This document shows positions 5,994 to 51,689 of a stretch of DNA of 64,000 nucleotides, in pieces. A program made the position numbers and the translations under genes. How positions within the stretch are numbered: the first letter of the stretch is position 1; each line of letters begins with the position of its first letter. The DNA is taken from NCBI GenBank assembly GCA_026003615.1, contig BPHQ01000002.1:62001-126000 (forward strand), read 5' to 3'. Source of the stretch: Bellilinea sp. (GTDB lineage Bacteria > Chloroflexota > Anaerolineae > Anaerolineales > Anaerolineaceae). The notes beneath the pieces are model-generated. The model was given only the letters and a program-made list of their open reading frames with translations, had not been told where the DNA came from and ran no database searches.

Positions 5994-8900
5994 ATGGCTG
6001 ATTATTTGATTCGTGGCGCGTTAAAGGATATTGATCCTGCCGTTCATGATCTCATTCAAATTGAAACGGAGCGCCAGTTTCGCAAGCTAATCCTCATTCC
6101 CAGTGAAAGCACCGCACCACTGGCAGTCCGCGAAGCCCTTGGCTCAGTTTTTCAAAACTTATACGCCGAAGGGTATCCGGACGAAGAAACTCGCTGGATG
6201 AGCGAGGACGAGATTCTCGATTATACCGCCCGCCTATCCTATTACAGACGCTATTCCGATCCACGATACTATAAAGGCGTTGAGTACGCCGACATCATCG
6301 AGTCACTTGCCCGTCGCCGTTGTGCGGAAGTTTTTGCAACTTCCCGCGTTTCTGCCGATCAATTGTACGTCAATGTACAACCTCTCTCTGGAGCACCAGC
6401 AAACAACGCAGTTTATCATGCTCTGATCAATCCCGGTGACACCATTTTGGGTATGAACCTCCTCCACGGTGGCCACCTCACCCATGGTTCATCGGTCAAC
6501 CGTTCTGGAAAGCTGTACAATGTCATCCACTACAATGTCAATCCGCACACCGAACAGATAGATTATGATGCTGTTGAAGCCCTCGCTAAGGAGCATAAAC
6601 CCAAAATAATCATTGCAGGCTATTCCTCCTACCCCTGGGTGCCGGATTGGTCGCGTTTTCGCGTCATTGCTGATTCCATCGGTGCTGTTTTACTGGCTGA
6701 TGTATCTCACATTGCTGGACTGATTGCGGGTGGAGCAGTTCCTTCGCCGGTCGGAATTGCCCAGGTGGTGACTTTCACCACACACAAAACCTTGATGGGA
6801 CCCCGCAGTGCCGTAATTTTGACCCACGACAGCGGTCTTGCCAAAAAGATTGATCGCGCTGTGTTTCCGGGGGAACAAGGCGGGCCGCACATGCATGCCA
6901 TTGCCGCTTTGGCCACAGCCTTAAAAATTGCCAAAACCGATTCCTTCCGGGAATTGCAGCACCAGATTGTCAAAAACTGTCAGGCGCTAACGCAGAGGCT
7001 GATGGAACGCGGCTTGCGCATTCCTTATGGCGGTAGTGACACCCATTTAGGAAACGTGGACTGCAAGACCATTGTAGGCAAAGACGGCACTCCGCTTTCC
7101 GGTGATTTAGCCGCTCGAATACTGGACATCGCCGGAATTGTCCTCAACCGCAACACCATCCCCGGTGATAAATCCGCTCTCAATGCGTCCGGCATCCGCT
7201 ACGGCACACCGTGGGTGACTCAGCGAGGAATGAAAGAGACTGAGATGGTTCAAATCGCCGATATTATGGCCGATGTATTGCTGGCGATTCAACCCTATTC
7301 CCTTGAAACCCGCAAAGGGGGTGCCATTCGCGCCAAGATTAGCTTCGATGTTCTGGAAGATGCCAAGATTCGTTCCCGTACCATAGCAGAGAATGCCGGT
7401 ATGGATCTGGAAATCTCCCGCCACGGTTATCCCCATTTCTTCTTTATGGATGATCAGGCTATAAGCAAAAATGGCTGGATAGCCTATAACCTGAAAGGGC
7501 GCGGAATTCGCACATTTGTCAATTATGTTTTTACCGGCGATAGCGAGGATTTGAAACCGGGCGAGTCCCAAACCACTTCTCTGGTCACACCATCGGTTGA
7601 GGTGCAGGGAATTCTGACTTGCGTGGAGTCCGAGCACTTCCGATTCAGTTTACCTGCAGAAAATGCAGGACTGGCGGCCGCATGGCTTCGCGATTTATCA
7701 GATGGTTATGTCAAATTTGATGAAGACCTGCTCCGACGCACACCGGGACCAATCTACGTAACCGAATCTGCGGAAGATGTTGTCACTTCAGCCATGGCAT
7801 CAGGAGATGCGAGCCGCAAACCATATTACATCGGCATTCAACCCGCAGGACAAGGAACACCCTTACCCGCTTTTCATTGGGAAGAAAAAGATCCCGATCA
7901 ACTCCGCCGTACACCGCTTTATGAAGTTCACAAACAACTTGGAGCAAAATTAATTCCTTTCGCCGGCTGGGAAATGCCTGTGTGGTACACCTCTGTAGTG
8001 GAGGAACATTTGGCAACCCGTCAGGCAGCCGGATTATTCGACGTCGCTCACATGGGCGTTTATCAAGCCGAAGGCCCGGATGCAGGTGTTTTTCTGGATT
8101 GTGTTTGTGGCAATGACATTTCGGCACTGGAAATTGGTGAGTCCTGTTACACCCATTTCCTAGACCCTGATGCTAACGTGATTGATGACCTGCTGGTTTA
8201 CCGCCGCTCCTCCCAGAAATACCTCATCGTGGTTAATGCCGCAAACGACGATAAAGACTGGGCATGGCTCAATGCAGTTCGCAACGGAGAAGTCATGGTA
8301 GACCGTCGGCGTCCATGGGCGCGCGCCTTCGGGCGCAATGTAATTCTCCGCAACCTGCGCGATCCAAAAGAGGGCAAGGAAATGCGCGTGGACATTGCCT
8401 TACAGGGTCCAAAATCGCGGGATATTCTACTGGCACTCGGCACTGATGCCGAAACCCGCCGACGTATCCTGGCTCTCAAGCGCACCGAATTGTGCGAAGC
8501 CGTTGTCGGCGGCATTGATCTGGTCGTTTCCCGTACCGGCTACACCGGCGAAAAGATGGCATTTGAGTTGTTTGTCCATCCCGACCAGGCAGTACAATTG
8601 TGGCAAGCCTTACTGGAAGTCGGAAAACCAATGGGTTTAAAACCCTGCGGGTTAGGCGCACGTGACTCATTGCGCACCGAAGCCGGTCTGCCACTTTATG
8701 GACATGAAATGGGAGGTCAGCTGAATTTAGGCGTTGCCGAGGCTGGTTTTGGCAGTTATGTAAAGACTTACAAACCCTGGTTCATCGGACGCGAGGCATT
8801 TTTGGAACGCGAGAAAACTCGCCATGGTGTGGTGGTTCGATTCCGCTTTACTGAAAAGGGAGTTCGAATGGCTCATCTCGGAGACCCGGTCATTGACCGA

Positions 8901-9122
8901 AAAGGTCGTACCATTGGAGTCGTCACCAGCTGCGCCATTGACTCTGAAGGTTTTCTGACCGGGCAAGCTTTCGTCGAAATCAAATCCTCTGAAGAAGGGA
9001 CTCCCCTGTTGATTTACCAATCGGCTCCCGCTACCGCCGGGAAACCGCCCGCTGAACTGAAAACCGGAGACCGGGTGTTGCTTCCCAGCGCGGCTGTAAT
9101 TATCAGCCGCTTCCCGATATAG
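5994..9122 (+). CDS. Serine hydroxymethyltransferase - glycine cleavage T protein fusion
   Basis: One continuous 1042-residue reading frame joins two one-carbon enzymes. Residues 1-430 are SHMT (GlyA): the PLP lysine is Lys265 in FTTHKTLMGP, and RYYKGVEY and FPGEQGGPHMH are family signatures. Residues about 637-1042 are GcvT (aminomethyltransferase): it begins LRRTPLYEVHKQLGAKLIPF and carries SRTGYTGEKMAFEL and CGLGARDSLRTEAGLPLYGH. About 200 residues between them match neither family as I know them. SHMT has an extra 25 residues (about 61-85) between YAEGYP and RYYKG. Both activities exchange one-carbon units with tetrahydrofolate, so channelling is plausible. It is followed by a strong terminator. 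GAGGAG precedes the ATG. GcvP and GcvH are not in the window. Confidence 0.94.
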   Translation: MADYLIRGALKDIDPAVHDLIQIETERQFRKLILIPSESTAPLAVREALGSVFQNLYAEGYPDEETRWMSEDEILDYTARLSYYRRYSDPRYYKGVEYADIIESLARRRCAEVFATSRVSADQLYVNVQPLSGAPANNAVYHALINPGDTILGMNLLHGGHLTHGSSVNRSGKLYNVIHYNVNPHTEQIDYDAVEALAKEHKPKIIIAGYSSYPWVPDWSRFRVIADSIGAVLLADVSHIAGLIAGGAVPSPVGIAQVVTFTTHKTLMGPRSAVILTHDSGLAKKIDRAVFPGEQGGPHMHAIAALATALKIAKTDSFRELQHQIVKNCQALTQRLMERGLRIPYGGSDTHLGNVDCKTIVGKDGTPLSGDLAARILDIAGIVLNRNTIPGDKSALNASGIRYGTPWVTQRGMKETEMVQIADIMADVLLAIQPYSLETRKGGAIRAKISFDVLEDAKIRSRTIAENAGMDLEISRHGYPHFFFMDDQAISKNGWIAYNLKGRGIRTFVNYVFTGDSEDLKPGESQTTSLVTPSVEVQGILTCVESEHFRFSLPAENAGLAAAWLRDLSDGYVKFDEDLLRRTPGPIYVTESAEDVVTSAMASGDASRKPYYIGIQPAGQGTPLPAFHWEEKDPDQLRRTPLYEVHKQLGAKLIPFAGWEMPVWYTSVVEEHLATRQAAGLFDVAHMGVYQAEGPDAGVFLDCVCGNDISALEIGESCYTHFLDPDANVIDDLLVYRRSSQKYLIVVNAANDDKDWAWLNAVRNGEVMVDRRRPWARAFGRNVILRNLRDPKEGKEMRVDIALQGPKSRDILLALGTDAETRRRILALKRTELCEAVVGGIDLVVSRTGYTGEKMAFELFVHPDQAVQLWQALLEVGKPMGLKPCGLGARDSLRTEAGLPLYGHEMGGQLNLGVAEAGFGSYVKTYKPWFIGREAFLEREKTRHGVVVRFRFTEKGVRMAHLGDPVIDRKGRTIGVVTSCAIDSEGFLTGQAFVEIKSSEEGTPLLIYQSAPATAGKPPAELKTGDRVLLPSAAVIISRFPI

Positions 9123-12455: not shown

Positions 12456-15400
12456 TTAAGGTTTGAGCAGCTCAACCTGTGCAAAATCATCTGCCGATAA
12501 AGTGCCGGGGTCAGCCTGACTGGGAGGATAGGTGCTGCTCAACATCACCTCCTGGCTTGTTTGGCTATCCGCAGGCCAGATCAAGTCAATGATACGCGTG
12601 TGGTTTCGCCGACCGTCGCTCGGCGCTCCACCAAACCGCCATTGGGCTGATTTTTGCTCAACATCCCGCACTCTCCACACTCCCGCCGATGGGTAACCTT
12701 CCTGTCCAAGCACAGCAACCACAAAGCCCCAGGTGGAGGGGTCTCCGCTACCCAGCGAAGAGCGTGGAACCCGGACTGTAACCGTCCGTGCAGCCGGGTC
12801 AACCAATATTTTCATACTGATTTCACTGGCTTGGACCGGTTCGAGAGTATCACTTTTTGGAATCAGGACCTGAGGAGTCCAGCCCTCCAACCAGAGAGCA
12901 TACTCCCATCCATTACCGCTTGTCAAAGCTGCGTTGCGGCCAGGCAATAACATTCGCGCTCCTGTTCCACTTCCGGGATCTTGATCAATATAGATGTCAA
13001 TTGTCTGAATCGCCAAACCATTGGGGGATCCCCACGGATTGGGAATAGGGCCGTGAAATCCCACTCGGAATATTAAATTGTTGTCGTCATAAGAAACCCG
13101 GAAAGACTTGAGGTCAAAGGCTTTGTTCTGAAAGACCGCATCGGTTGGATAAGTATAAGTTCCCGGTCCGTAATCATCTCCTTCCGGGTCTTCAACCTCG
13201 AACAAGACAGTCGAAAGGCCCAGATCTGGGATCACGAATTGTGCCGGTCCTTTTTGCGGAAAGAGCGTCTGGCCTGCTCCTACCCCAATGAGAAAACGAT
13301 ACTCATCACCGGTTTCGAACTCCCCCAGTAAAGTTAGCGGCAAAGAAACCTCCAGCACCCCAGCACTGGATGCCGCTGATCCAACCGATACACCTTCGAC
13401 CCAGCCCTCTTCTGCTGCATTGTAAAACGTTAAGTTTGTGCCGCCATTCCACACCAGAGCATAACTGGCTGCCATACCTAACAGCCCAGGAGTTTCTGCC
13501 AAAGTGTATGGGTAACTGGATTTGAAGCGGCGATCTTGGAGGTAAATCACCACTGGTGTTTCGAGCGTGCGCGCCATAGCGCCGCCGTTACCGGCATCCA
13601 CTCGAATAAACAGGTTGTTTGCATCCATCGCATACGCAAATCCCGCCAGTTGACTGCCTTCGCCAGCTGGATAGTAAGCCGCCTTGTCCCATTCACCAGA
13701 ACCAATTGTCCCATCAATGGTTGGGGTGGAAAGACCCTGAAGTGGGGTTTCGGCACTCACCGGCCGAGCCTGAATAATCGGCACATCCACAAAGGTTGGT
13801 ACTGGCTCACCAAGGGTTTCAAACACTTTTCGCAACAGTTCGCGAAAGCCAAGATCAAAATACTCATCCTGACCCGAATCCTGATCGGCCCCATACCACC
13901 AAAACCAGTCTGAACCCTCGGCAAGCAGCATGTAATCCAGTGCCGTTTCGATCTGTTCGGGAGGTGCCTGACGCACCTTTGAAATATCGTATTTTGCCAT
14001 CACCTCTCGTGTTTGCCGCAGGTATTCCCAGGCAGTATTCTCTTCGGCCTCACCAATCCAGGTATCGTAATTCGGGCTGAACCACGCCCCAGGGAAAAGG
14101 TCCTCAATCATCCGCTGCTCAGGGAATTTTTGAATGTATTCGCTGGGGGTTATCGTGCGAATAGTTGCACTTTCGGAAAGAAGCTGATAAAAAGTGCTTA
14201 GGAACTCGATTCCATCGTTCTCGTAATATTCCCAGGCATTTTCGCCATCCAGAATTATCGAAACGACGTGAGGCCCCGCAGCGTTTTGCTCCTTCAACTT
14301 TGCACGGATGTTTTCCAGCCGTTGCATCAGGTCTTTGGCTGCGGTGGTTCCAGAAACTCCCGAATAAGTGAATCCAATCTTATCCGAAAGGACACCATCT
14401 CGGAAGAACACTGCCAGTTTGTCACCAGCCTGATTGGTCACATAATAGGGACGGTAGAGTTCATCGGCTTGATTTACAGTTTCTTTGCTGTCCCGGGTAA
14501 AACTATCCAACCCCAGGGATTTTGCCAAAACCGGTTCCCCGGTTGCCATCCATGAGTAACCTGCCCGCAAAACAAATGGCACCATGATCTGTGCCACGGC
14601 GCCCTCACCCGGCCACAAACCACGAGGTGATTGACCAAAATTCTCCTCATATAGGGCCACACTGCGCTGCAGATGAGTCAGCGCGTCCTGGGGGTAGGAA
14701 AACTTTTGAGGTAAATCCGAGCCAGGGTTGCCTTTGGCCTGTAAGTTGGTATCAATCAACAGCGGTAATATTGGGTGCGCATAAGGTGTTGTAGTGACCT
14801 CGATCTGACCGGCATCTTGCAACTTTCGATGCAGGGGGATGATTTCTGCCATCACCCGTCTCACTTCCTGGAAAAGGATGACTTTATCCTCCTCGCTGAA
14901 ATTCTGGCCTTTGTCCACCAAATCCTTCAATGGCGGTTGATTAAGGAACATTGGGTCAAACCAGACCAGATTCCACCAGATTTGCAGATCGCGGAAATCC
15001 TGTTCCGTAAAGATATTCAATGCGTTTTGAATAGCTTCCGCATCCGTACCGCCGCGCTTTTCCAGCAATTCTTTATATCGGGGATAGCGCCCGATTAGTT
15101 TGTCCCAATTGGCATCAAAGAATCGCTGTAAAATAAAGCGTTTTTCATCTTCCGTCAACTGATCTGCCGGTTTTTCGGTCATGACCCAATAAAGATCTTT
15201 TGCCCCATTCTTCACAAAATCTTCCAGCTGGCGCAACAAAACCGGGGTAAGGTTAAAGGTGACATGCACATTCGGGTACTGTGATACCAGATAAGCCATA
15301 TCATAATAATCTTTCGTGGCATGAACACGAACCCATGGACGGGTATAAATCCCATTTTCATCCTTGTAGTACAAAGGCTGGTGTTGATGCCACATCAAGT

Positions 15401-15581
15401 TGAGGTAAAGTACCTCCTCCGGTAGTACAGGTTCGGTTGTGGGGGTTGGCTCAACAGGCGCGGGTGTGTTCACAACCACCGGCTGGGTAGGGAGTGCTGG
15501 CGTAACAGTCTGCGTTTGGCAGGCCGACAATACCAGAACAATGATCATGAAAACCCACAGAACACGCATTGTCATTTTCAT
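12456..15581 (-). CDS. GH57 amylopullulanase-like lipoprotein with C-terminal sugar-binding-type domains
   Basis: The protein (1041 residues from the chosen start) opens with a lipoprotein signal ending LVLSAC and a Thr/Pro-rich linker. GH57 motifs follow: WHQHQPLYY, TTPYAHPILPLL, GLWPGEGAVAQ (probable nucleophile Glu326) and ILDGENAWEYY (probable acid Asp445), then EGSDWFWWYG. Two beta-type domains end it: one starting near TPTIDGTIGSGEWDKAAYY, and a glucodextranase C-terminal-like region (DPEGDDYGPGTYTYPT). This arrangement is known from archaeal amylopullulanases that hydrolyse alpha-1,4 and alpha-1,6 glucan bonds. GGAGG eight bases before the ATG at 15581 fixes this start; in-frame upstream codons overlap the previous gene. 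It is last in the operon and probably surface-exposed. Confidence 0.9.
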   Translation of the reverse strand: MKMTMRVLWVFMIIVLVLSACQTQTVTPALPTQPVVVNTPAPVEPTPTTEPVLPEEVLYLNLMWHQHQPLYYKDENGIYTRPWVRVHATKDYYDMAYLVSQYPNVHVTFNLTPVLLRQLEDFVKNGAKDLYWVMTEKPADQLTEDEKRFILQRFFDANWDKLIGRYPRYKELLEKRGGTDAEAIQNALNIFTEQDFRDLQIWWNLVWFDPMFLNQPPLKDLVDKGQNFSEEDKVILFQEVRRVMAEIIPLHRKLQDAGQIEVTTTPYAHPILPLLIDTNLQAKGNPGSDLPQKFSYPQDALTHLQRSVALYEENFGQSPRGLWPGEGAVAQIMVPFVLRAGYSWMATGEPVLAKSLGLDSFTRDSKETVNQADELYRPYYVTNQAGDKLAVFFRDGVLSDKIGFTYSGVSGTTAAKDLMQRLENIRAKLKEQNAAGPHVVSIILDGENAWEYYENDGIEFLSTFYQLLSESATIRTITPSEYIQKFPEQRMIEDLFPGAWFSPNYDTWIGEAEENTAWEYLRQTREVMAKYDISKVRQAPPEQIETALDYMLLAEGSDWFWWYGADQDSGQDEYFDLGFRELLRKVFETLGEPVPTFVDVPIIQARPVSAETPLQGLSTPTIDGTIGSGEWDKAAYYPAGEGSQLAGFAYAMDANNLFIRVDAGNGGAMARTLETPVVIYLQDRRFKSSYPYTLAETPGLLGMAASYALVWNGGTNLTFYNAAEEGWVEGVSVGSAASSAGVLEVSLPLTLLGEFETGDEYRFLIGVGAGQTLFPQKGPAQFVIPDLGLSTVLFEVEDPEGDDYGPGTYTYPTDAVFQNKAFDLKSFRVSYDDNNLIFRVGFHGPIPNPWGSPNGLAIQTIDIYIDQDPGSGTGARMLLPGRNAALTSGNGWEYALWLEGWTPQVLIPKSDTLEPVQASEISMKILVDPAARTVTVRVPRSSLGSGDPSTWGFVVAVLGQEGYPSAGVWRVRDVEQKSAQWRFGGAPSDGRRNHTRIIDLIWPADSQTSQEVMLSSTYPPSQADPGTLSADDFAQVELLKP

Positions 15582-15606
15582 CTTTTCATCCTCCATATGG
15601 TTTGAT

Positions 15607-17778
15607 TTAGCGTTTAGCATGGGCAGGATCGTAAATCTGCAAACCATTTAAGGCAGTACCAATCCATAATCTTCCCATGGGGTCAAAGGCAAACGCCAGT
15701 GGTTCACCCCCATTAAAACCAGAATTATTCTGCCGGTAAATAGTCCATTGATTAAGCCCGTCAAAACGGCTGATCAATCCCCCCGGTTCGGTTGGGAAAC
15801 CATGTCCAAGCCAGTATCCTTTTCCGGGTTGTTCGATGATACTGTTGACAACACTAGTAGGCAACAAAGATGTACCCAATCGGTAGAACTTCCAGTCATT
15901 CTGATCCCAACGGGCTATCCCCCCGCCTATGGTGGTAATCCAAACCTGATTTTTGGAATCCACAATCAGATGAGATACTCCACCCCATCCCAAATCGCGC
16001 GAGGAGAAGTCCCAGCTCTCACTCGCCCTTGTGGATAAATTTAACCGAGTAACCCCCTTCTTCGTTCCCAGCCAAAGAAATTCCTCTTCACCGTTGACCT
16101 GATGGGCAAGTGAGAAAATTAAGGTATCCGGCAGGACGATAGAATCATTGCTATGCGAAATTAATTGATTCCCTTCCCACTCATATAATCCATATAATGT
16201 ACCAATCCACAGGTGTCCTTCCTTATCCTCAACCAGAGAGCGAACCTTGACTCCCTGATCTGTATTATTCATCACAAGGATTTGTCTCCATTCCCCAACA
16301 CACAAACAGCTCAAACCGCTTTCCGTCCCAAACCATAAATTCCCTTGCCGATCCTCGTAGACCACTCGCACTCGATCATCATTTATGCCCGAATTTTGAC
16401 GAGTATACACCTGACTATCCTCACCCCAGGGTGATCCCTCGCTGACATGCCATAGGGCCGCCCCTCGATCGGTGGCAATCATCATCTCGCCGTTTGAACG
16501 CAAATGTAAGTCATATATCGTGTCGGATGGCAATGGAGATGTTTGTGCCGTTAAGTGCAGCCAACCGCGCCGCAACAAAGCCTGGTCATATTCGTACGTT
16601 ACCTTACCGATAACGATAAATCCTGTAAAACCAATAATCAACCACCAGAACACTTTAGGGGGTTTCGGGAGCATTTCTTCCAGATAATCCCAATACTGCT
16701 CCTTCTCCAAGATCCAGGCATAGGCCGACCTTAGGAACCCGGATCCACTCATACTCAATGCCGGAATGACAATCAAAGAGTATTGCGGCCATTTGGTCGG
16801 ATATACCAGTAAAGTTACAAATTGCACAACAAACCACCCCGTTAACCATGGTTCTTTTCGTCCGTAAAAATAAAGCCCTACCACCCCAGCCCAGAAAATA
16901 AACTCATCCAGTGTCAGGAAGAAGAACACGCGCGGATGCCACGGTAACGCAGTAGCCACCCAGATTATGGGTTGCCACCAGGGGTAACCAGCCCTCAGTA
17001 CATCTCCACCTTGAGTGTATTGACGGTGAAAGGCAATGATATCAACAAGCCGACGCAGAGGATCATTCCACAGATAGGGATTTAATGCTAAGAAAGTGAC
17101 CCCGGCAACCCCGCCCCAAAGGATTATCTCCCGCCAACCGACCTTGCGTCGGAATTGGCCAACTAGAAAAGCTATGGGGATGAGCATCAAGGCATATGGA
17201 TATTTGCCAGCAATTGCAGCACCCATTGTGGCCCCAGAAAACCCCAATAGCAATGGATTTCCTTGTTTTGATTCACCCTCAAAATACTTTCGGAATAATA
17301 AGACGGCCAGTAAGGAGGAGAACAGTGGAAAGCTTTCCAGATAAACCTGAGAGGTATATTTGATGGTATAGGAATGAAATGTCAGCAGAAATGCCGCCAG
17401 CGGATCAAAAAGCGCCAGCACAAAAACCTGCAAAACGCCGAAAAACGCACTGATGGAACGGTTGAAGTAAAATTCAAAATCCGGGTTGATACTTTCTCCC
17501 CTCAACAAAAACGGCAGGCTATACATTAACTTAATGAGGGGTGGGTGCTCCATATTCTGATCGTAGTTTATGATTCCACCCCAATCCCCCTGGCGAATTA
17601 ATTGTGCGTACTCCCGCCCTATCCGCATGTAAACCGGTTCGTCAGCATCCAGAGGTAACTGCCACACCGCCCAGGCGTGGATGAGGGCAGAAAGCAACAC
17701 AATCAGCGCAATTGTGTGCCAGCGTTTCCACCACTTGGGCAATGTACGGAGAGGAAAATTAAGCAGTTTAGCGAACAT
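15607..17778 (-). CDS. GT39-type (PMT/ArnT-like) glycosyltransferase fused to a seven-repeat propeller
   Basis: Residues about 20-400 are a polytopic membrane transferase: the first external loop holds LPLDADEPVYMRIG (acidic pair near 44-47) and HPPLIKLMYSLPF, as in the PMT/ArnT family that moves sugars from polyprenyl phosphate. Residues about 425-723 contain seven 'two-component regulator propeller' repeats, seen as GNLWFGTESGL, GHLWIGTLYGL, FLWLGTKKGV, QVWITTIGGG, GYWLGHGF, GRLWIGTALNGL and an earlier MMIATDRGAALW. Seven repeats fit one complete beta-propeller, presumably outside the membrane. The gene lies between the amylase and the GH57 gene in the starch operon. Acceptor and role are unknown; the propeller could bind glycan or protein. 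Confidence 0.82.
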   Translation of the reverse strand: MFAKLLNFPLRTLPKWWKRWHTIALIVLLSALIHAWAVWQLPLDADEPVYMRIGREYAQLIRQGDWGGIINYDQNMEHPPLIKLMYSLPFLLRGESINPDFEFYFNRSISAFFGVLQVFVLALFDPLAAFLLTFHSYTIKYTSQVYLESFPLFSSLLAVLLFRKYFEGESKQGNPLLLGFSGATMGAAIAGKYPYALMLIPIAFLVGQFRRKVGWREIILWGGVAGVTFLALNPYLWNDPLRRLVDIIAFHRQYTQGGDVLRAGYPWWQPIIWVATALPWHPRVFFFLTLDEFIFWAGVVGLYFYGRKEPWLTGWFVVQFVTLLVYPTKWPQYSLIVIPALSMSGSGFLRSAYAWILEKEQYWDYLEEMLPKPPKVFWWLIIGFTGFIVIGKVTYEYDQALLRRGWLHLTAQTSPLPSDTIYDLHLRSNGEMMIATDRGAALWHVSEGSPWGEDSQVYTRQNSGINDDRVRVVYEDRQGNLWFGTESGLSCLCVGEWRQILVMNNTDQGVKVRSLVEDKEGHLWIGTLYGLYEWEGNQLISHSNDSIVLPDTLIFSLAHQVNGEEEFLWLGTKKGVTRLNLSTRASESWDFSSRDLGWGGVSHLIVDSKNQVWITTIGGGIARWDQNDWKFYRLGTSLLPTSVVNSIIEQPGKGYWLGHGFPTEPGGLISRFDGLNQWTIYRQNNSGFNGGEPLAFAFDPMGRLWIGTALNGLQIYDPAHAKR

Positions 17779-17805: not shown

Positions 17806-19500
17806 TTAACCCTCTGGTATTTGAATTAACCGATAGATTAAAACATCTCCAGCCCGAATGGTAGCCGGAAATTCGAAATCGCTCAACGCTCCACTTTGAT
17901 CTATTGAAACATTTCCGGCAACCTCATAGCCTAGTAGCGGCTGCAAACGATATTTACCGGGATTTAATCCTTCCAGAGAGCGAAAGGTTACCTTATCTTG
18001 CGGCTGATCACTCAAATTCAACATAATCAAGACCTGCTCGTTCTGACTGACACGGGCATAGGTCAGGATAGAGGACGAGGTACTGCTCAGTGGATACAAC
18101 TGCCCGCTTTGTAATGCCTCTGATTGCCCACGTATCTTTATTAAGTTAATGTAGAACCGGAGGATTGAGTCGGGACTGGTTAATTGGTTTTGCACGTTTT
18201 TCTCGGTGTAATCCGCTTTCGGAAATAACCATGGTGTACCGCTGGTAAAACCAGCCATTCTTGCGGATGACCAGTGCATCGGCGTTCGGATATTGCGATG
18301 ATCACCCACCCCGGTTAAACCGATTTCTTCGCCGTAATAAATAAAGGGTACCCCCGGACTGGTCAAATATACCGCAGCCGCAAGGCGCGCCTTGCCCTCA
18401 TCATTCATCAGGACGCTCATCACCCGGTCCTGATCGTGATTGGTTAAAAAGATACCCATGCTGCCAATTGGGAATAGTCGGGTTTCAAATGTCAGGGTAT
18501 TGCTCAAAGACGCGCCATTCCGATTATTAATATTGCTCAAAATGGAGCGCGCCAGGTCAAAATTGAACACCATATCCAATTCCGCATTGCGGACGTAGCG
18601 GACTGCTTCAAAGCTATTCGACCATACCTCGCCAACAGTCATGGTTTGAGGATTGAGCGATTTGTAATACGCCCGGAACTCAGCCAACCATTCATGAGTT
18701 AAGGTTGTGTTTTCCTGTTGGGACTCTTCTTCAATCAGATGTTTGGCAGCATCCAGACGAAAGCCATCTACACCCACATCCTCCAGCCAGAAACGCACAA
18801 TTTTATAGATTTCTTCAGTGACAGCAGGATTTTTCAGGTTCAAGTCGGGCATCTGATCCCAAAAGAGAGCGTAATAATATTTTCCATTCGCAGCCCGATG
18901 CCAGACTTTTTGTCCATCTGGTCCGCCATACCCTGGATTTTCATCCTGCCAGATGTAATAATTATCATAAGGCGACTGAAAGTCTAGCGATTGTTGAAAC
19001 CACGGGTGCTGTGTGGAAGTATGGTTGATGACCAGATCTATGATAACTTTCATCCCACGCTGATGGGCAGCCTCAATAAACTCCCTGAAATCATCCAAAG
19101 TGCCATAATCGGGATTGACATTGTAATAATCGGTAACATCGTAACCGTGGTAAGATGGCGATGGGTGAATGGGCATTAACCACAGCGCCGTAACCCCTAA
19201 ATCGCTGTCCGTTTCCGGGTTTCCATCATTCAGGTAATCCAGTTTCTCAGTTAAGCCGCGAAAATCTCCAATCCCATCCCCATCCGAATCGTAAAAGCTC
19301 CGGACGAATATTTGATAGAACACGGCCGTTTTCCACCACTCCCCATCCTCATAAATGGTCACAGTTGGGGTGGATCTTTCAAGTGGTCCATCAACCTCGC
19401 CTATACTCTCAAAAGGAGATGTTTGAGGCAGGCTGCAGGCGTTAATCAGAGCCAGAATGATGAAAAGAATCACAAACCGCTTATGTTGGACAGAAATCAT
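17806..19500 (-). CDS. GH13 alpha-amylase-family lipoprotein
   Basis: A lipoprotein signal (lipobox LINAC, Cys22) precedes a GH13 barrel. The catalytic residues are Asp250 (VDGFRLDAAKHL), Glu291 (MTVGEVWSN) and Asp356 (LTNHDQDR); the calcium-type motif DSDGDGIGDFRGL and DLVINHTS are also present. The 564 residues include a short C-terminal beta domain. Localisation outside the cytoplasm and the neighbouring MalEFG genes suggest that it shortens starch or maltodextrin before uptake. The best subfamily guess is alpha-amylase or an oligo-glucosidase-like enzyme; sequence alone does not settle endo or exo action. Its start overlaps the stop of the upstream GH13 gene by four bases. Confidence 0.92.
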   Translation of the reverse strand: MISVQHKRFVILFIILALINACSLPQTSPFESIGEVDGPLERSTPTVTIYEDGEWWKTAVFYQIFVRSFYDSDGDGIGDFRGLTEKLDYLNDGNPETDSDLGVTALWLMPIHPSPSYHGYDVTDYYNVNPDYGTLDDFREFIEAAHQRGMKVIIDLVINHTSTQHPWFQQSLDFQSPYDNYYIWQDENPGYGGPDGQKVWHRAANGKYYYALFWDQMPDLNLKNPAVTEEIYKIVRFWLEDVGVDGFRLDAAKHLIEEESQQENTTLTHEWLAEFRAYYKSLNPQTMTVGEVWSNSFEAVRYVRNAELDMVFNFDLARSILSNINNRNGASLSNTLTFETRLFPIGSMGIFLTNHDQDRVMSVLMNDEGKARLAAAVYLTSPGVPFIYYGEEIGLTGVGDHRNIRTPMHWSSARMAGFTSGTPWLFPKADYTEKNVQNQLTSPDSILRFYINLIKIRGQSEALQSGQLYPLSSTSSSILTYARVSQNEQVLIMLNLSDQPQDKVTFRSLEGLNPGKYRLQPLLGYEVAGNVSIDQSGALSDFEFPATIRAGDVLIYRLIQIPEG

Positions 19501-21275
19501 TTTTTTGTAGATAAAATCACACCACCCAGGGGTGGAAGAATTATTTTTGTAGCATCGTTTTGAACTTTCACATCACAATTCTGATCAGTTTGAATCTGAA
19601 CCATCCACGGACCGGTTAGGGAATGAGTCTGCGAGGCAGAAGATAGATTTATCACTGCCGCTAATGTTTGTTGCTCGTGCTGCCGTTCCACGATGACCAG
19701 GGCGTCATTACATTCCAAAACTTTAAAGCTTCCTCTGCTTAAGGCAGTAAACTTTTTCCTTACCTCAATCAGGCGCCGGTAAAAGCTTAGGAGTTGCAAA
19801 TCCTGGTCATTGCCCCATAACATCGGTAAACGAGCTTCTTCCGGAACACCGCGCCCATCCTGACGAACATCCTGTTGTTGGGATAAGCCGACTTCTGTAC
19901 CATAGTAAATCACCGGGGGGCCGACAAGGCTGAATTGTAATAAAGCGGCCAGTTTAAGGCGGCGTTGGTCGTTGCTGGCTGCCCAAAGGAAACGGTTCAT
20001 ATCATGATTATCCAGAAAGGATGGCCGAGAAAAATCTGCCGGGAAATAAGCGTGATGCCTCTCCAAAAATGAGGCCAGTCTATGACCATCCCAGCGCCCA
20101 AATGCAAGCGACTGGCGCAGCCCCTCCAGCAGGATAAAGTCCAGCGCACCGTCCAATTGACCGGCAAATGTCAATTGAACATCGGAAGGGTCCACGATTT
20201 CTCCAAATGTCCAGCAATCCGGCTTTACCTGTCTCGTCACCTTGCGAAAGTCAGCCCAAAAATCGGACGCCGGACCGATGGCATAATCTACCCGGAAGCC
20301 ATCTACGCCAAATTCCAGCCAGTAACGAGCCGCGTTCAATACATACTCTCGAGCAGGCGGATAGCGAAGGTTCAACTGGGGAAGACTCTTCACCCCAAAA
20401 AAAGTTTCATAGTCATCCGGGTAATGATGAAAGGTGAACCATTCACGGTAGGGACTTCGCGGGTCGGATATAGCCGACTGAAAATATGGATGCAGGCTAG
20501 ACACGTGATTGGGGACAAAATCCAACAACACCCTCATTCCCAACCGATGGGCTTCAACCAATAGCAAGCGCAGATTCTCCTTTCCGCCAAGCCGCTCTTC
20601 AACATCGAAGAAATCAGTGGCATCATATCCATGATGGCTGGGGCTCGGAAAGACAGGTGTAAGCCAGAGCGTATTTACACCTAAATCAGCCAGATAATCA
20701 AGGTGATCGGTGATTCCTTTCAGTGTTCCGCCAAAAAAACCCCCCAGATTAGTCGGCTTTTTCCATTGTTCTCCTTTGGCGGGAGAAAAACGATCGACAA
20801 ATATCTCATACACGACTGCATCTTTCGTCCAGTCAGGCACAGAGTCGTCATCCACATAGAAAGCATACACCCGACCCTTGTCCGAAAAGATTTCTCCTTT
20901 CCCGCTTACTTCAAAACCAAAGGAATAGCGCACCACCGAACCCGCCGGAAAGCCGGGCAAGTAAGCCTCGTAATAAGAGAGATACCCCCATAGGTAATTA
21001 TCCCATTCTGAGTGAGTAAAGAACAACGGGGCAGCGTATCCATTTAGCACCTTTCCAAAGCTGCCTCGTGGATCACTGCCGTCAGTTGTCCAATAAACCC
21101 AGCCCCGTCTCACTGGATAACTCGGGCCAACAGAAATCACCAGCTTTACTGCCTGAGCAGGCAATGGATCGAGTGGAAACCGGCGAAAAGCATGGCTGAT
21201 ATCCGCGCGTTGACCATATACCCGCGCCAGTCTTAATGGTTCGGTTGCTAATGTTCCAAAGATGAAATCGTCCAC
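19497..21275 (-). CDS. Cytoplasmic GH13 hydrolase, neopullulanase/cyclomaltodextrinase-like
   Basis: No signal peptide is present. Residues about 1-145 form an N-terminal beta domain, as in neopullulanase and cyclomaltodextrinase, before a GH13 barrel starting near AVVYEIFVDRFSP. Catalytic residues are Asp330 (VDGFRVDYA), Glu359 (CWTFGEIV) and Asp425 (FLDNHDMNRF). GHHGYD-type substrate contacts appear as SPSHHGYDATDFF. The start is GTG with AAGGA upstream. It follows malG by 26 bases and overlaps the lipoprotein amylase gene by four. The likely job is to degrade imported maltodextrins or cyclodextrins. Which of the neopullulanase, maltogenic amylase or cyclomaltodextrinase names applies cannot be told from sequence. 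Confidence 0.9.
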   Translation of the reverse strand: MDDFIFGTLATEPLRLARVYGQRADISHAFRRFPLDPLPAQAVKLVISVGPSYPVRRGWVYWTTDGSDPRGSFGKVLNGYAAPLFFTHSEWDNYLWGYLSYYEAYLPGFPAGSVVRYSFGFEVSGKGEIFSDKGRVYAFYVDDDSVPDWTKDAVVYEIFVDRFSPAKGEQWKKPTNLGGFFGGTLKGITDHLDYLADLGVNTLWLTPVFPSPSHHGYDATDFFDVEERLGGKENLRLLLVEAHRLGMRVLLDFVPNHVSSLHPYFQSAISDPRSPYREWFTFHHYPDDYETFFGVKSLPQLNLRYPPAREYVLNAARYWLEFGVDGFRVDYAIGPASDFWADFRKVTRQVKPDCWTFGEIVDPSDVQLTFAGQLDGALDFILLEGLRQSLAFGRWDGHRLASFLERHHAYFPADFSRPSFLDNHDMNRFLWAASNDQRRLKLAALLQFSLVGPPVIYYGTEVGLSQQQDVRQDGRGVPEEARLPMLWGNDQDLQLLSFYRRLIEVRKKFTALSRGSFKVLECNDALVIVERQHEQQTLAAVINLSSASQTHSLTGPWMVQIQTDQNCDVKVQNDATKIILPPLGGVILSTKK

Positions 21276-21301: not shown

Positions 21302-22147
21302 TTACCCCTTCACGCCACCAACCGTCAGGCCGGCTTCAAAGTAACGATTCAACGCCAGATAAACCAACACCGTGGGGATTACAACAATCACAGCCCCAGC
21401 AGCAAATTGACCCCACGGCACCGAAACGCTGTTGGCAAGCGAATACAACGCTGGCACAGCCAGCTTGACCGTGTCTGGCGCCGGTACAAGAACAGAGGAG
21501 AAGATAAAATCGCCCCAGCCTGTCATAAAAGCCAGAATGGCAGTAACTGCCAGAGCCGGGCGCGCCAGTGGTAAGGCAATTAAGAAGAAGGCTTGCACGG
21601 GAGTTGTTCCGTCTATCTGCGCAGCCTCCTCCAAATCAATTGGAATGGTATCAAAGTACCCTTTCAAGTTCCAGGTACAAAACACCAGAGTTGCCGAGGT
21701 GAAGGCTAAAATCAGGCCTAGATGTTTACCGAACAACCCAATGGCTGTCAGTACCTGCGCAATTGCCACCAGCGAGAGAATGCCGGGAAAAGTCGAAATC
21801 GCGAGCAAGAAAATCAGAAAAAATTCTCTTCCCTTGAATCGAAACCGGGACAGGGCAAAAGCCGCTGAGGTGCAAATCACTAGACTGGCAATGGTTGTGA
21901 TACTGGCAACTTTGAAACTGTTGGTAAGCCAAGTCAAATAAGGCCGCTCGAACAACATGAAACGGTAGTTTTCAAAACTCCACTCCACCGGAAAGAACAT
22001 CCCCGGCAGGCTGAGGGTATACAACCGCCCTCCCGAACGCCCGGAAGCCAGAATGGCAAACCACACCGGGTAGAGCGCAAAAATCACCGCAATCACCAGG
22101 AAGGTGTATTGCAAAATTCGTACACCAAGCGGGGTTTTCCGGATCAT
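21302..22147 (-). CDS. malG: Maltodextrin ABC transporter permease, MalG type
   Basis: The 281-residue protein has six predicted membrane spans and the cytoplasmic EAA loop (LEEAAQIDGTTPVQAFFLI), which contacts the ATPase. The C-terminus GLTVGGVKG is the classical end of MalG-type permeases. The ATG overlaps the malF stop by four bases (22144-22147), so translation is coupled. It forms the channel with MalF and takes sugar from MalE. Specificity for maltodextrin is inferred from the adjoining amylases. No ATP-binding subunit gene is found nearby, so a shared MsmX/MalK-type ATPase elsewhere is likely. Confidence 0.93.
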   Translation of the reverse strand: MIRKTPLGVRILQYTFLVIAVIFALYPVWFAILASGRSGGRLYTLSLPGMFFPVEWSFENYRFMLFERPYLTWLTNSFKVASITTIASLVICTSAAFALSRFRFKGREFFLIFLLAISTFPGILSLVAIAQVLTAIGLFGKHLGLILAFTSATLVFCTWNLKGYFDTIPIDLEEAAQIDGTTPVQAFFLIALPLARPALAVTAILAFMTGWGDFIFSSVLVPAPDTVKLAVPALYSLANSVSVPWGQFAAGAVIVVIPTVLVYLALNRYFEAGLTVGGVKG

Positions 22148-23364
22148 GATTCGTACGCTCCTTTCGTGATTCGGGTAATTCTCAGGCTATAGAGGGTTGC
22201 CAGGAAAAGCATAATAAAAATCAGCACCGCAAAGGCGGTTGCACGGCCGTAATTTTGCAACTGGTAAATCTGGCGATAGGCATACACCATCACAAATTCA
22301 GTTGCACCAGGGGTATCGGCTCCAGCCAGCGGTCCGCCCGCCGTGATTGCGTAAGCAGTCCCGAACATTTGAAAAGCCGTGATAGAAGTCAGCACCGTTG
22401 CAGGCAGCACAGCCGGGCGAATCAGTGGCAAAGTTATCCGCTGTAACTGTACCCACCAGTTTGCACCATCCACTTCGGCAGCTTCGTAAAGCTCAACCGG
22501 AATGGATTGGAGTGCACCGAGGATAGCGACCATAAAGAAAGGATAAGAAAACCACAAATCGGCAAGCACCACCACCCCAAACGCACTGACCGGGTTTTGC
22601 AGCCAGATAGGACCCTGAATACCTAACTGAGCAAGCAACTGATTAATTGTTCCCTGCTGGCGGAAGAAAAACTGCCACACCAGAGCCATCAAAATCGCCA
22701 CAGAGGAAGCGCCCCATGGCACAAACAGAGCCACACGGAAAAAGGTTTTCCCTTTCAAGCGGGTATCATTCAAAATCAATGCCAGCGCAAGGCCGAACAC
22801 AAAAGTCAAAGGCACCCGAATGGCAACAAAAAGGATAGTGCGCAGCACCACCACAATGAAGGGACCGGTGGACATCAATTGATTGAAGGCAGCCCGGATC
22901 GAAAGCACATAAGCCAACCCAACCACCAGCAGGACGGCGATCAGCCACACCATCCCGCTGGAAATTGGCCTGTCAATTTCTCGGTCAAACCTCCGGTTGA
23001 CATACACCGCCCCAACCAATGGCACAAAAACCAGTAAAATCTTGCCGAGAGCCATTAAAGCTTCTGCCGAAAATAATTTGCCAAGCAGGGCTTGATAATT
23101 GGCAAACAAAGGATCTGCCAGACGATACGGCGACCCAAGTCCCCCCTGTGCATTTTCTCTGAATTGAGGCCAGCAAAGAGGATCGAGGAGACCGGTCAGG
23201 AAAACTTCGCAATCCGGTTTGGGGCGAAATTTATTTCGATTTGTGAACGAAATGTAGGTATTCAAGACAATCGGGTATACATTGAATACCAGAATGCCCA
23301 ACATGGTTGGAAATAGAAACAAAAAAATCGTCAGGCTCTTACGTGTTCCCTTCCAGGTGACCAT
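22144..23364 (-). CDS. malF: Maltodextrin ABC transporter permease, MalF type
   Basis: The 406 residues include an N-terminal span (FLFLFPTMLGILVFNVYPIV), a long external segment, two further spans near residues 135-160 and the core permease domain with the EAA motif (LYEAAEVDGANWWVQLQRI). The extra N-terminal spans are typical of MalF as opposed to other sugar permeases. GAGGAG lies six bases before the ATG. It is separated from malE by 89 bases that hold a stem-loop, and overlaps malG. Function as half of the membrane channel follows from family and context. Confidence 0.93.
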   Translation of the reverse strand: MVTWKGTRKSLTIFLFLFPTMLGILVFNVYPIVLNTYISFTNRNKFRPKPDCEVFLTGLLDPLCWPQFRENAQGGLGSPYRLADPLFANYQALLGKLFSAEALMALGKILLVFVPLVGAVYVNRRFDREIDRPISSGMVWLIAVLLVVGLAYVLSIRAAFNQLMSTGPFIVVVLRTILFVAIRVPLTFVFGLALALILNDTRLKGKTFFRVALFVPWGASSVAILMALVWQFFFRQQGTINQLLAQLGIQGPIWLQNPVSAFGVVVLADLWFSYPFFMVAILGALQSIPVELYEAAEVDGANWWVQLQRITLPLIRPAVLPATVLTSITAFQMFGTAYAITAGGPLAGADTPGATEFVMVYAYRQIYQLQNYGRATAFAVLIFIMLFLATLYSLRITRITKGAYES

Positions 23365-23453: not shown

Positions 23454-24782
23454 TTACTTCATTCCCTCAACGGCTTCCAGAATCGCAGCCTGAGCTTCCT
23501 GCAAAGCAGTCTGCGGATCCTGCGCACCGGTCCAAATGGCAGCCGAAGCACGGCCAACCGGCCCCCACTGAGCGGAGGAGAACGGTGACGGTGACATCGG
23601 CACACCGATAGCCAGGGCTTTACCAAAGCCAACGACTGCCGGCAATTGAGCCACTTCCGGATCTTCGATGGCGGCCTTTTGAGCGGGGATAGTCTTATTG
23701 ACCAGAGCCAGTTTCTTCTGAACCTCGGCGCTGGTGAAGTACTTCATCACATCCAGGGCTACTTCGGCTTTGCCGCGGTCTACAGCATTCTTGCTCAGCA
23801 TGAGGGTCTTGATCCCCACGAAAGGTTTACCCATCGGGACGATGGTGTAATCAATACCCGCATCTTCAATGCCGGCAATTGCCCATGGGCCGGTCCACCA
23901 CATGCCAACCTTGCCTTCTTGCAGAGCGGCATTGCAGATATCGTAGCTGTTTTCAGCCAGCGAAACTGCCTTGAGTTTGACCAGCCATTCGGCTGCAGCA
24001 AGGGCTTCGGGGGTGTCCATGTAGGCATTACCGTCTTCATCCACATAAGCCGGCACACCAAAACCAAAGTAAATTGGTGACATGTGATAAGCATCCTCAG
24101 CACCAAAACCCTGGTTGCAGATTAACGGAATGCCCTTGTCCGCATAGAACTTCTCAGCTTTAGCCAGCAAGTCATCCCATGCGAAAGGATCGGTAGGCAG
24201 GTATTCCTCGGTGACGAGGGCTTTATTAGCCACCAGCGCAATACCTTCCATGGTTTCGGGTAATGCCCAAATTTGATCCATCCAGGTTACGCCGTTGATA
24301 CCCGATTCGGTATAAACGCTTTCAAGAAAAGCTTGATCAATACCCAAATCGTTCAACGCTACAATGTTACCTTGCAAAGCCTGTTCACCGATTTTGTCAT
24401 TTGCCCACCCAATGATGTCGGGGCCTTCGCCAGCCGGGATCGCCACGTTCAGAGCATTGGCGACATCCTCAGGTTTGGAAAGGTCAATTTTGACATTTGG
24501 ATTGGCAGCTTCATAATCCTTGAAAGCCTGAGTGATGGCTTCGAGGTATTTACCATCCCACTGATGCCAGATGGTAATGGTCACCTGCTCCGCCGTGGGA
24601 GGCGTGGTGGGTTCTGCGGGCGCAGATGTTGGTTCTGCAGGGGCAGTCGTCGGTTCTGCAGGAGCAGTCGTCGGTTCTGCAGGAGCAGTTGTGGGAGCAG
24701 GGGTTGCTGCGGGTTGGCAGGCTGCCAGAACGAACGAGGCGATCAGCAACAAGCCAATCAAGGGCATGAATTTTTTCAACAT
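23454..24782 (-). CDS. malE: Maltodextrin-binding lipoprotein, MalE type
   Basis: The 442-residue protein starts with a lipoprotein signal (lipobox VLAAC, Cys22), followed by a Pro/Ala/Thr/Glu linker of four near-identical seven-residue repeats, then a solute-binding protein fold (TITIWHQWDGKYLEAITQAF, later KVGMWWTGPWAIAGIEDAG). Motifs are those of family 1 sugar-binding proteins. The linker should hold the binding domain away from the membrane and is common in Chloroflexi lipoproteins. AAGGAGGAAAG gives a very strong ribosome site. Position before malF-malG and the amylases makes maltodextrin the likely ligand. Confidence 0.93.
   Translation of the reverse strand: MLKKFMPLIGLLLIASFVLAACQPAATPAPTTAPAEPTTAPAEPTTAPAEPTSAPAEPTTPPTAEQVTITIWHQWDGKYLEAITQAFKDYEAANPNVKIDLSKPEDVANALNVAIPAGEGPDIIGWANDKIGEQALQGNIVALNDLGIDQAFLESVYTESGINGVTWMDQIWALPETMEGIALVANKALVTEEYLPTDPFAWDDLLAKAEKFYADKGIPLICNQGFGAEDAYHMSPIYFGFGVPAYVDEDGNAYMDTPEALAAAEWLVKLKAVSLAENSYDICNAALQEGKVGMWWTGPWAIAGIEDAGIDYTIVPMGKPFVGIKTLMLSKNAVDRGKAEVALDVMKYFTSAEVQKKLALVNKTIPAQKAAIEDPEVAQLPAVVGFGKALAIGVPMSPSPFSSAQWGPVGRASAAIWTGAQDPQTALQEAQAAILEAVEGMK
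24610..24693 (-). repeat. Four 21-bp in-frame repeats coding the MalE linker
   Basis: Units at 24610-24630, 24631-24651, 24652-24672 and 24673-24693 differ at only a few bases and encode seven-residue repeats of the APAEPTT type. They are a likely site of length variation between strains. Confidence 0.9.
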
Positions 24783-24920: not shown

Positions 24921-26153
24921 TTAACTTGCTTCAGCCAGTTGATGTAAACTCAATGAAATTGCCTGAGCAACGGCACCCATTGCAGAAGAGCGCCTGCCAA
25001 GCACGGCAGAAGTAATGGTCACTGCTTGAGAGGCAACTTTAAGACTGCGCTTCTTGGCAACTTTACGCACCGGTTCAAGCAGTAGATCGCCCACTTGAGC
25101 AACTCCCCCGCCAATCACAATCATAGTTGGATTAAACAGATTGATCAAATTGGCCAGAGCAGTACCCAGGTAATAACCCGCTTCCTGAACTAACTTTTGG
25201 GAAAGATGATCCCCTTTGCGGGCGGCCGCGATCACATCCATGGCATTAATTGTTTCTATAGATGGACGTTCACTCAGGGTTGTGCGCACACCGAATCGGA
25301 TGGACTGAATAGCCTTCTGAGCAATTGCCCGTCCGCCAGCCAGTGCCTCCAAACACCCGCGATTTCCGCAGGTGCATAACGGACCGTTTTCCTCGATCGT
25401 AACATGACCAATTTCCCCAGCGCAACCGGTTGTTCCGCGGTAAATTTGACCTTCAATAAGTAAACCTGCTCCAATACCGGTTCCAACCTTAATATAGACC
25501 AGATTATCCACCCCCCGCCCCGCTCCAAACGCCCATTCTCCCAACGCGCCAAACTCGGCATCATTTCCAAGGGTCACGGGGCATCCCCAGGATTTTTCAA
25601 GCCACTCGCGAATTGGGAAAAGGTCCCATCCGGGCATAATTGGGGGACCACTAACCATTCCCGCGTCGGTCACTATCGGGCCGGGTACACCAACGCCGAT
25701 CGCAGAAATCTGACTCAATTTCACGCCGAGCTGTTCAAGCCATGAGCGCATCACCTGATCCACAAATGGCAGGCAAACTGTGGGCCCCTCAAAAATATCC
25801 AGCGTGGCTTCGATTTCATCAATGACATGAGCGAGGTAATCAGCTAAAACAAAAGTAACATGGGTTGCCCCAATGTCCACCCCCACCACAAGACCACCTT
25901 GCGGGTTAATTTCCAGAGCGATTGCACGCCTCCCGCGTGAAGATTGGCCATTTGTTTCCCTCACCAGACCAGCTTTAATCAAATCCCCAACAATTGCAGT
26001 GACCGCCGCCCGGGTCAAGCCTAATTCGCGCGAAAGTTCAATTCGAGAAATCCCGCTTGGGCTGAATCGGATCAAGTCCAATGCGGCATGTTTGTTAAGA
26101 TTTTTAACATTCGTCTTGGGGACTTGCCAAAAAGTCGTATCCAAAGAGCGCAT
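24921..26153 (-). CDS. ROK-family transcriptional regulator (NagC/XylR type)
   Basis: The 410 residues comprise an N-terminal winged helix-turn-helix (about 20-75, ISRIELSRELGLTRAAVTAI) and a ROK sugar-kinase-like domain starting at VVGVDIGATH. The ROK zinc motif is complete: CTCGNRGCLE. Such proteins usually repress sugar operons and release DNA on binding a sugar. The gene is first of the maltodextrin operon, so it probably controls its own operon through the palindrome that overlaps its -35. GGGAG lies close to the ATG. A kinase role is unlikely with an attached DNA-binding domain. The inducer is unknown, presumably glucose or a maltodextrin. Confidence 0.92.
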   Translation of the reverse strand: MRSLDTTFWQVPKTNVKNLNKHAALDLIRFSPSGISRIELSRELGLTRAAVTAIVGDLIKAGLVRETNGQSSRGRRAIALEINPQGGLVVGVDIGATHVTFVLADYLAHVIDEIEATLDIFEGPTVCLPFVDQVMRSWLEQLGVKLSQISAIGVGVPGPIVTDAGMVSGPPIMPGWDLFPIREWLEKSWGCPVTLGNDAEFGALGEWAFGAGRGVDNLVYIKVGTGIGAGLLIEGQIYRGTTGCAGEIGHVTIEENGPLCTCGNRGCLEALAGGRAIAQKAIQSIRFGVRTTLSERPSIETINAMDVIAAARKGDHLSQKLVQEAGYYLGTALANLINLFNPTMIVIGGGVAQVGDLLLEPVRKVAKKRSLKVASQAVTITSAVLGRRSSAMGAVAQAISLSLHQLAEAS

Positions 26154-51321: not shown

Positions 51322-51338
51322 CACTTCACCTCAACACC

Positions 51339-51689
51339 TCACGCAGACCGGACTTCCAATGAGCGATTTGTCCAATCAATTATAAATACGCGCCGAACTG
51401 CTTCGAGAGGAATTTCGCCATAAACATGCGGGTAAGATTTTCCATTTGGAGCCGTTTCATACTTTACTTCGATCGGCAGGTTTGTTTGCTCAATTTCCAA
51501 CACCACCACATCTGTTCGCTTAGAGAATAACCGTTCTGCCACTTCCATGACCTGTTCACGGGTTGAACAATGAATGAACCCCTCGCTACTCAGAGAATCG
51601 GCATAATACGAACCCGATTCGATGGCATTGAACCACGCCTGACTCTCTGCTATATGATAAATCATTTCCGAAAATTGTTCGCTTCTCAA
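51339..51689 (-). CDS. DUF952 family protein
   Basis: This 116-residue soluble protein matches DUF952 over its whole length: MIYHIAESQAWFNAIESGSY, EGFIHCSTREQVMEVAERLF and YPHVYGEIPLEAVRRVF are the characteristic blocks. The family is widespread and of unknown biochemical function. Its ATG overlaps the stop of the 1766-residue gene by four bases and its stop is 17 bases before the DUF2298 gene, so it sits inside the membrane-glycosyltransferase operon. A second Met at residue 9 is where most family members begin. Confidence 0.85.
   Translation of the reverse strand: MRSEQFSEMIYHIAESQAWFNAIESGSYYADSLSSEGFIHCSTREQVMEVAERLFSKRTDVVVLEIEQTNLPIEVKYETAPNGKSYPHVYGEIPLEAVRRVFIIDWTNRSLEVRSA

Follow-up and report, generated by a model that had tools for sequence, protein, structure and literature searches.

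Why is a putative membrane glycosyltransferase with an attached propeller encoded among amylase genes, and what would it modify there? The question arose from a 64,000-nt stretch of DNA, hereafter the window, from Bellilinea sp. (Chloroflexota, Anaerolineaceae; contig BPHQ01000002.1, positions 62,001–126,000), in which a sequence-only reading had placed a GT39-type module followed by Reg_prop repeats within a starch operon, and had suggested either a link between alpha-glucan uptake and surface glycosylation or glycan binding by the propeller.

The fusion gene and its operon

The ORF of the fusion was recovered at exactly the coordinates given by that reading, and the starch-operon setting was borne out by a GH13 gene directly upstream and a GH57 gene downstream, with a second GH13 gene, the genes of a MalEFG-type importer and a ROK regulator gene further upstream. 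The genes, in 5′ to 3′ order along the minus strand, and the parts of the fusion protein are as follows.

24921–26153, minus strand: ROK-family regulator (NagC/Mlc-like)
23454–24782, minus strand: MalE-like substrate-binding lipoprotein with a Thr/Pro-rich linker
22144–23364, minus strand: MalF-like ABC permease
21302–22147, minus strand: MalG-like ABC permease
19497–21275, minus strand: GH13b, a cyclomaltodextrinase/neopullulanase-like GH13 protein without a lipobox, probably cytoplasmic
17806–19500, minus strand: GH13a, a lipoprotein of the GH13 alpha-amylase family (Pfam, 351.9 bits; lipobox found by eye)
15607–17778, minus strand: fusion ORF, 723 aa, ATG start
16573–17778, minus strand: residues 1–402 of the fusion, GT-C (PMT/GT39-like) membrane module with 11 predicted TM helices (AlphaFold2 helices within residues 19–402)
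17482–17658, minus strand: residues 41–99, first outer loop, predicted outside, with conserved D44-x-D46-E47 and E77-H78-P79-xxx-K83
15607–16572, minus strand: residues 403–723, C-terminal seven-bladed Reg_prop propeller (PF07494, AlphaFold2 model, 4a2l), predicted outside
12456–15647, minus strand: GH57 lipoprotein with a Glucodextran_C module (Pfam)

The GH57 gene probably starts at 15581, as in its relatives, whose alignments begin at residue 23; with this start, all intergenic gaps from MalF to GH57 were at most 27 bases long or were replaced by overlaps of a few bases. No importer ATPase gene was recognised by reading the ORFs of at least 150 aa at 8–28 kb of the window, eight of which were also searched in Pfam. 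Elsewhere in the window, a 1042-aa ORF (5994–9122) reads by eye as a fusion of serine hydroxymethyltransferase with a GcvT-like aminomethyltransferase and has relatives of up to 93% identity, and at 48751–59202 a pair of DUF2298 membrane proteins, 857 and 1766 aa long, adjoins a 739-aa PMT_2 protein to form a further cluster of large membrane proteins, probably glycosyltransferases.

Predicted fold, topology and active-site loop

The propeller half was readily assigned by sequence: PF07494 scored 66.6 bits in the window protein (cut-off 20.4; E 4.2e-19) and matched all 25 members of sequence set A4 at E 0.01. The AlphaFold2 model, built from an alignment of 25 sequences, had a mean pLDDT of 85.4 and a pTM of 0.56, a low value that leaves the angle between the membrane half and the propeller half uncertain. 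It placed the membrane helices at 19–402, a closing strand at 406–409 and seven blades at 421–458, 470–501, 512–541, 554–590, 601–632, 643–681 and 693–716, in keeping with the earlier proposal that seven repeats make one closed propeller; the Reg_prop domain is thus predicted to close into a seven-bladed ring. The best solved structure for this half was BT4663 (4a2l; Z 33.0, rmsd 2.6 Å over 292 residues), followed by BT3049 (3v9f; Z 32.3).

Both of these structures come from Bacteroides hybrid two-component sensors (HTCS), with which the window protein shares the propeller family and fold. This likeness favors a sensory role, in which the propeller would sense maltodextrin and gate the transferase, by analogy with the part that Reg_prop domains play in the control of histidine kinases. 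The window protein differs from BT4663 and BT3049 in having a glycosyltransferase module attached, and its Pfam matches included no kinase, receiver or other output domain. It also carries a single propeller, whereas BT4663-type sensors contain a second one. We therefore regard the sensory role as distinctly unlikely.

The membrane half was harder to name. PMT_2 (PF13231) reached 17.8 bits in the window protein, below its cut-off of 26.1, which makes the PMT family name weak by sequence; for this reason we describe the protein as GT39-like and do not file it as a GT39 member. A relative at locus L148 scored 28.1 bits with PF02366 (PMT), over the cut-off of 22.7. The structures listed as matches to the full model of the window protein were propellers and are uninformative on its membrane half, and a profile search of solved structures with a 15-row alignment of the membrane module returned no match at E ≤1, so that the claim of a PMT-like fold rests on fold comparison. 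The query for this comparison was the orthologous module of a permease-fused relative (L062, residues 3–378), standing in for the window's own module. Its predicted structure had a GT-C fold closest to Pmt4 (Z 27.7) and Pmt1-Pmt2 (Z 27.5), with lower scores for ArnT (25.1) and STT3 (24.6). ArnT and STT3 belong to GT83 and GT66, respectively, and their accessory domains and gene context differ from those of the window fusion.

The 11 helices, with basic inner loops and long acidic outer loops, follow the positive-inside pattern, which predicts an inner N-terminus and an outer location of both the active loop and the propeller. Conservation was tabulated over 35 propeller-fused and 38 permease-fused sequences (described below). 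D44, D46, E47, H78, P79, R107 and K140 were kept in at least 34 of the 35 propeller-fused rows (D46 in 34, E47 in all 35), and in every permease-fused row having the column, with the exception of one Tyr at H78. E77 was replaced by Gln in seven propeller-fused rows. Position 48 was specific to architecture, being Pro in 34/35 propeller-fused rows and Asp in all 36 permease-fused rows having the column. We take the D-x-D-E (Asp-Glu) motif of the first outer loop to be the equivalent of the PMT motif. The family resembles the GT39 PMTs (yeast Pmt1-Pmt2 and Pmt4, actinobacterial Pmt) in the GT-C fold (the ortholog module scored Z about 27), in this outer-loop motif and in the N-in/C-out topology, and differs from them in the added seven-bladed propeller or MalF permease and in its place in a maltodextrin operon.

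Propeller and permease forms in Chloroflexota

A profile of the membrane module, applied with a threshold of E 1e-25, matched 49/396 class, 37/147 family and 29/400 phylum genomes in panels that overlap, and the fetched loci were sorted by profiles built for this analysis. Two fused architectures were found, some of their ORFs being cut by contig ends: the propeller form of the window (membrane module plus Reg_prop propeller), present 36 times across 35 Chloroflexota genomes (35 ORFs in 34 genomes plus G112), and a permease form, in which the same module is joined to a MalF-like ABC permease, with 39 copies in 39 genomes (38 in 38 plus G393). A contig holding the propeller part alone (L069, G030) was left out of the counts. 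No genome examined contained both forms. The other architectures comprised 14 stand-alone modules, three loci at contig edges, five with a long N-terminal extension and one with another C-terminus; 11 further loci, classified later, all lacked propeller and permease. In five genomes of genus g17 (G467, G469, G470, G474 and G479), module matches contained one in-frame stop codon within the matched stretch; on closer inspection these loci were open ORFs of 575–638 aa with a long N-terminal part.

The fusion is thus not unique to the assembly of the window, where it was the single match in a genome of 1.65 Mb (two contigs, 71.5% completeness). Such a genome could invite suspicion of an assembly artefact or of a functionless chance fusion. 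This explanation is refuted by the number of copies, including that of the isolate Bellilinea caldifistulae GOMI-1 (84% identical along its entire length), and by the comparison with the same species, which gave dN/dS of about 0.07 for the membrane module (dN 0.068/dS 0.959) and about 0.08 for the propeller (dN 0.133/dS 1.679), indicating purifying selection on both parts; we assign it a negligible probability. Other named members of the propeller form were an uncultured Bellilinea and Anaerolineaceae bacterium UBA9135. A whole-protein search of 61 relatives gave some match in 41, mostly to the propeller or membrane part alone, and a contig scan with close-relative patterns gave three full-length matches, all in Anaerolineaceae, with the other 21 confined to the propeller part. 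A last-blade signature ([ND]SG, one of several residues, x, G or A, x, EP) was considered as a family mark and dropped, being present in just 17 of 33 full-length propeller-form proteins.

The permease form is newly found here and is more surprising than the propeller fusion. In the model of L062 (pLDDT 86.7, pTM 0.80), the PMT-like module runs into a MalF-like core (residues 384–712) that matched SugA (Z 24.4) and MalF (9bcr; Z 24.0), and PF00528 (BPD_transp_1) was matched by 28/28 members of set A5, which represents this architecture. The protein therefore shares a full MalF-like core with MalF/SugA subunits and differs from them in having an entire PMT-like module as its N-terminal part. 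A MalG-like gene lay directly downstream in 38/39 permease-form loci, the remaining locus being cut by a contig end. At one locus (L065:9786–11947), a 367-aa PMT-like module and a MalF-like permease were encoded by overlapping neighbor ORFs, which represent either a split version of the permease fusion or a frameshift in it. Three operons of the permease type encoded binding proteins, each about 800 aa long, in which two MalE-like domains lie in tandem (L133:16864–19299, L138:8760–11153 and L146:4535–6955). A literature search, mostly of papers outside subscription, found no description of either fusion.

Both forms occurred within the genus of the window (permease form in G001, G003 and G004; propeller form in G000, G002, G005 and G006), in matching places near ROK and UDK genes. 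Their MalEFG proteins also differed, with about 30% identity, so that the entire operon was apparently exchanged. In a tree of 96 membrane modules, made by a quick method, the two forms were separated by a branch supported at 96% SH-aLRT, with two label changes for the propeller form and four for the permease form.

Coupling to maltodextrin import and the candidate acceptor

Window-type MalF/MalG genes lay upstream in 25 of the 35 propeller-form loci tallied, and at six of the ten other loci the available upstream sequence was shorter than 4 kb. A window-type MalF was encoded somewhere in 32/35 propeller-form genomes (absent from G077, G184 and G112), being non-adjacent, or on a contig too short to tell, in G170, G061, G099, G130, G089, G481 and G562. 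Across the class panel of 396 genomes, 22 encoded a window-type MalF at a threshold of E 1e-60: 10 of the 13 with the propeller form as against 12 of the 383 others (Fisher p 7e-12, uncorrected for relatedness), a test that also covers the last 7 of the 49 class matches, which added G112 and G393. Counted by family, the propeller form and window-type MalF coincided in 7/9 families. The same MalF was found in none of the 21 permease-form genomes of this panel (p 0.62), a result that argues neither for nor against an association. Twelve of the 22 MalF-bearing genomes had no confirmed propeller fusion (in one of them, G153, the contig ends within the module), so the importer probably does not depend on it. 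A GH13 or GH57 gene was located near 20/35 propeller-form loci, that of L148 matching weakly and lying on the other strand. Two propeller fusions without neighboring MalEFG genes adjoined lipoproteins with three (L153:11844–15062) and two (L151:117–2306) PnrA-like (Bmp) binding domains.

Taken together, gene order, the co-occurrence with MalF even where it is not adjacent, and the alternative permease fusion strongly support a link of the fusion to alpha-glucan uptake, so that this part of the earlier proposal stood. The joining of the same module to a permease in relatives further suggests that the transferase and uptake activities cooperate, and coupling of the transferase to the importer is well supported.

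The operon linkage would also fit a role in capture: the propeller would bind alpha-glucan or serve as a dock for MalE and the amylases, and the chief task of the membrane module would be to anchor the protein next to MalFG. In line with such binding, structure titles describe the Reg_prop domains of BT4663 as the periplasmic portion of a sensor for heparin/heparan sulphate. Near-invariance of the active-loop residues in both forms, needless for an anchor, and the existence of a permease form without a propeller make this explanation unlikely.

We tentatively favor, at somewhat less than even chances, an outward-facing GT39-like transferase coupled to MalEFG that O-glycosylates exported proteins of the alpha-glucan system. 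With a polyprenyl-phosphate-linked sugar as donor, the enzyme would modify, at the outer face, Ser/Thr residues of MalE and of the GH57/GH13 lipoproteins. Docking of the acceptor or of the glucan may fall to the propeller in the window's form; in the permease form, the permease itself would keep the enzyme beside the binding protein. Precedents come from actinobacteria. According to PMC3460810, O-hexosylation of the N-terminal peptide of LppX, a lipoprotein of Corynebacterium glutamicum, depends on Ppm1, and the reference list of that article cites Streptomyces coelicolor PstS as glycosylated through a protein-O-mannosylation-like pathway. Together with the PMT-like fold, these O-glycosylated lipoproteins suggest O-glycosylation of the binding protein and the surface amylases.

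The acceptor was approached by counting Ser/Thr in the 30-residue stretch that follows the lipobox Cys in MalE, GH57 and GH13a, compared with 30 other lipoprotein-like ORFs from the same loci. No enrichment was detected in any of the six groups (lowest p 0.089). MalE of the propeller-form loci averaged 5.84 Ser/Thr per 30 residues versus 7.33 in the other lipoprotein-like ORFs, and the MalE linker of L056 had almost none. This negative result lends no support to a specific protein acceptor, so the glycosylation part of the earlier proposal did not gain the backing that its uptake part received; surface glycosylation by the membrane module, or glycan binding by the propeller, is plausible.

The same test is compatible with a non-protein acceptor, as is the nearly equal fold match to ArnT: an ArnT-like enzyme would decorate a lipid or cell-wall glycan beside the importer, perhaps storing or presenting alpha-glucan at the surface. 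The best structural matches were nevertheless protein O-mannosyltransferases, and the annotated operon genes included none for lipid or wall-glycan synthesis, which renders this alternative improbable.

Returning to O-glycosylation of the exported alpha-glucan proteins, a wider and slightly more tentative proposal is that Chloroflexota possess a class of importer-tethered PMT-like enzymes, existing as either a separate propeller subunit with MalEFG or a MalF-like fusion, the two being mutually exclusive, in which glycosylation of the surface machinery or of the incoming glucan would be physically coupled to import. GT39-like enzymes are usually viewed as general modifiers of exported proteins; here, such an enzyme is tied to a single nutrient importer through its operon and an alternative gene fusion. 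The PMT-MalF fusion is also relevant to the question of how enzymatic modules come to be joined to ABC permeases. Should the coupling prove functional, it would illustrate how glycosylation of proteins or of the surface can be directed to one uptake system in bacteria, and isolates, B. caldifistulae among them, offer a defined case for asking why importer lipoproteins become glycosylated.
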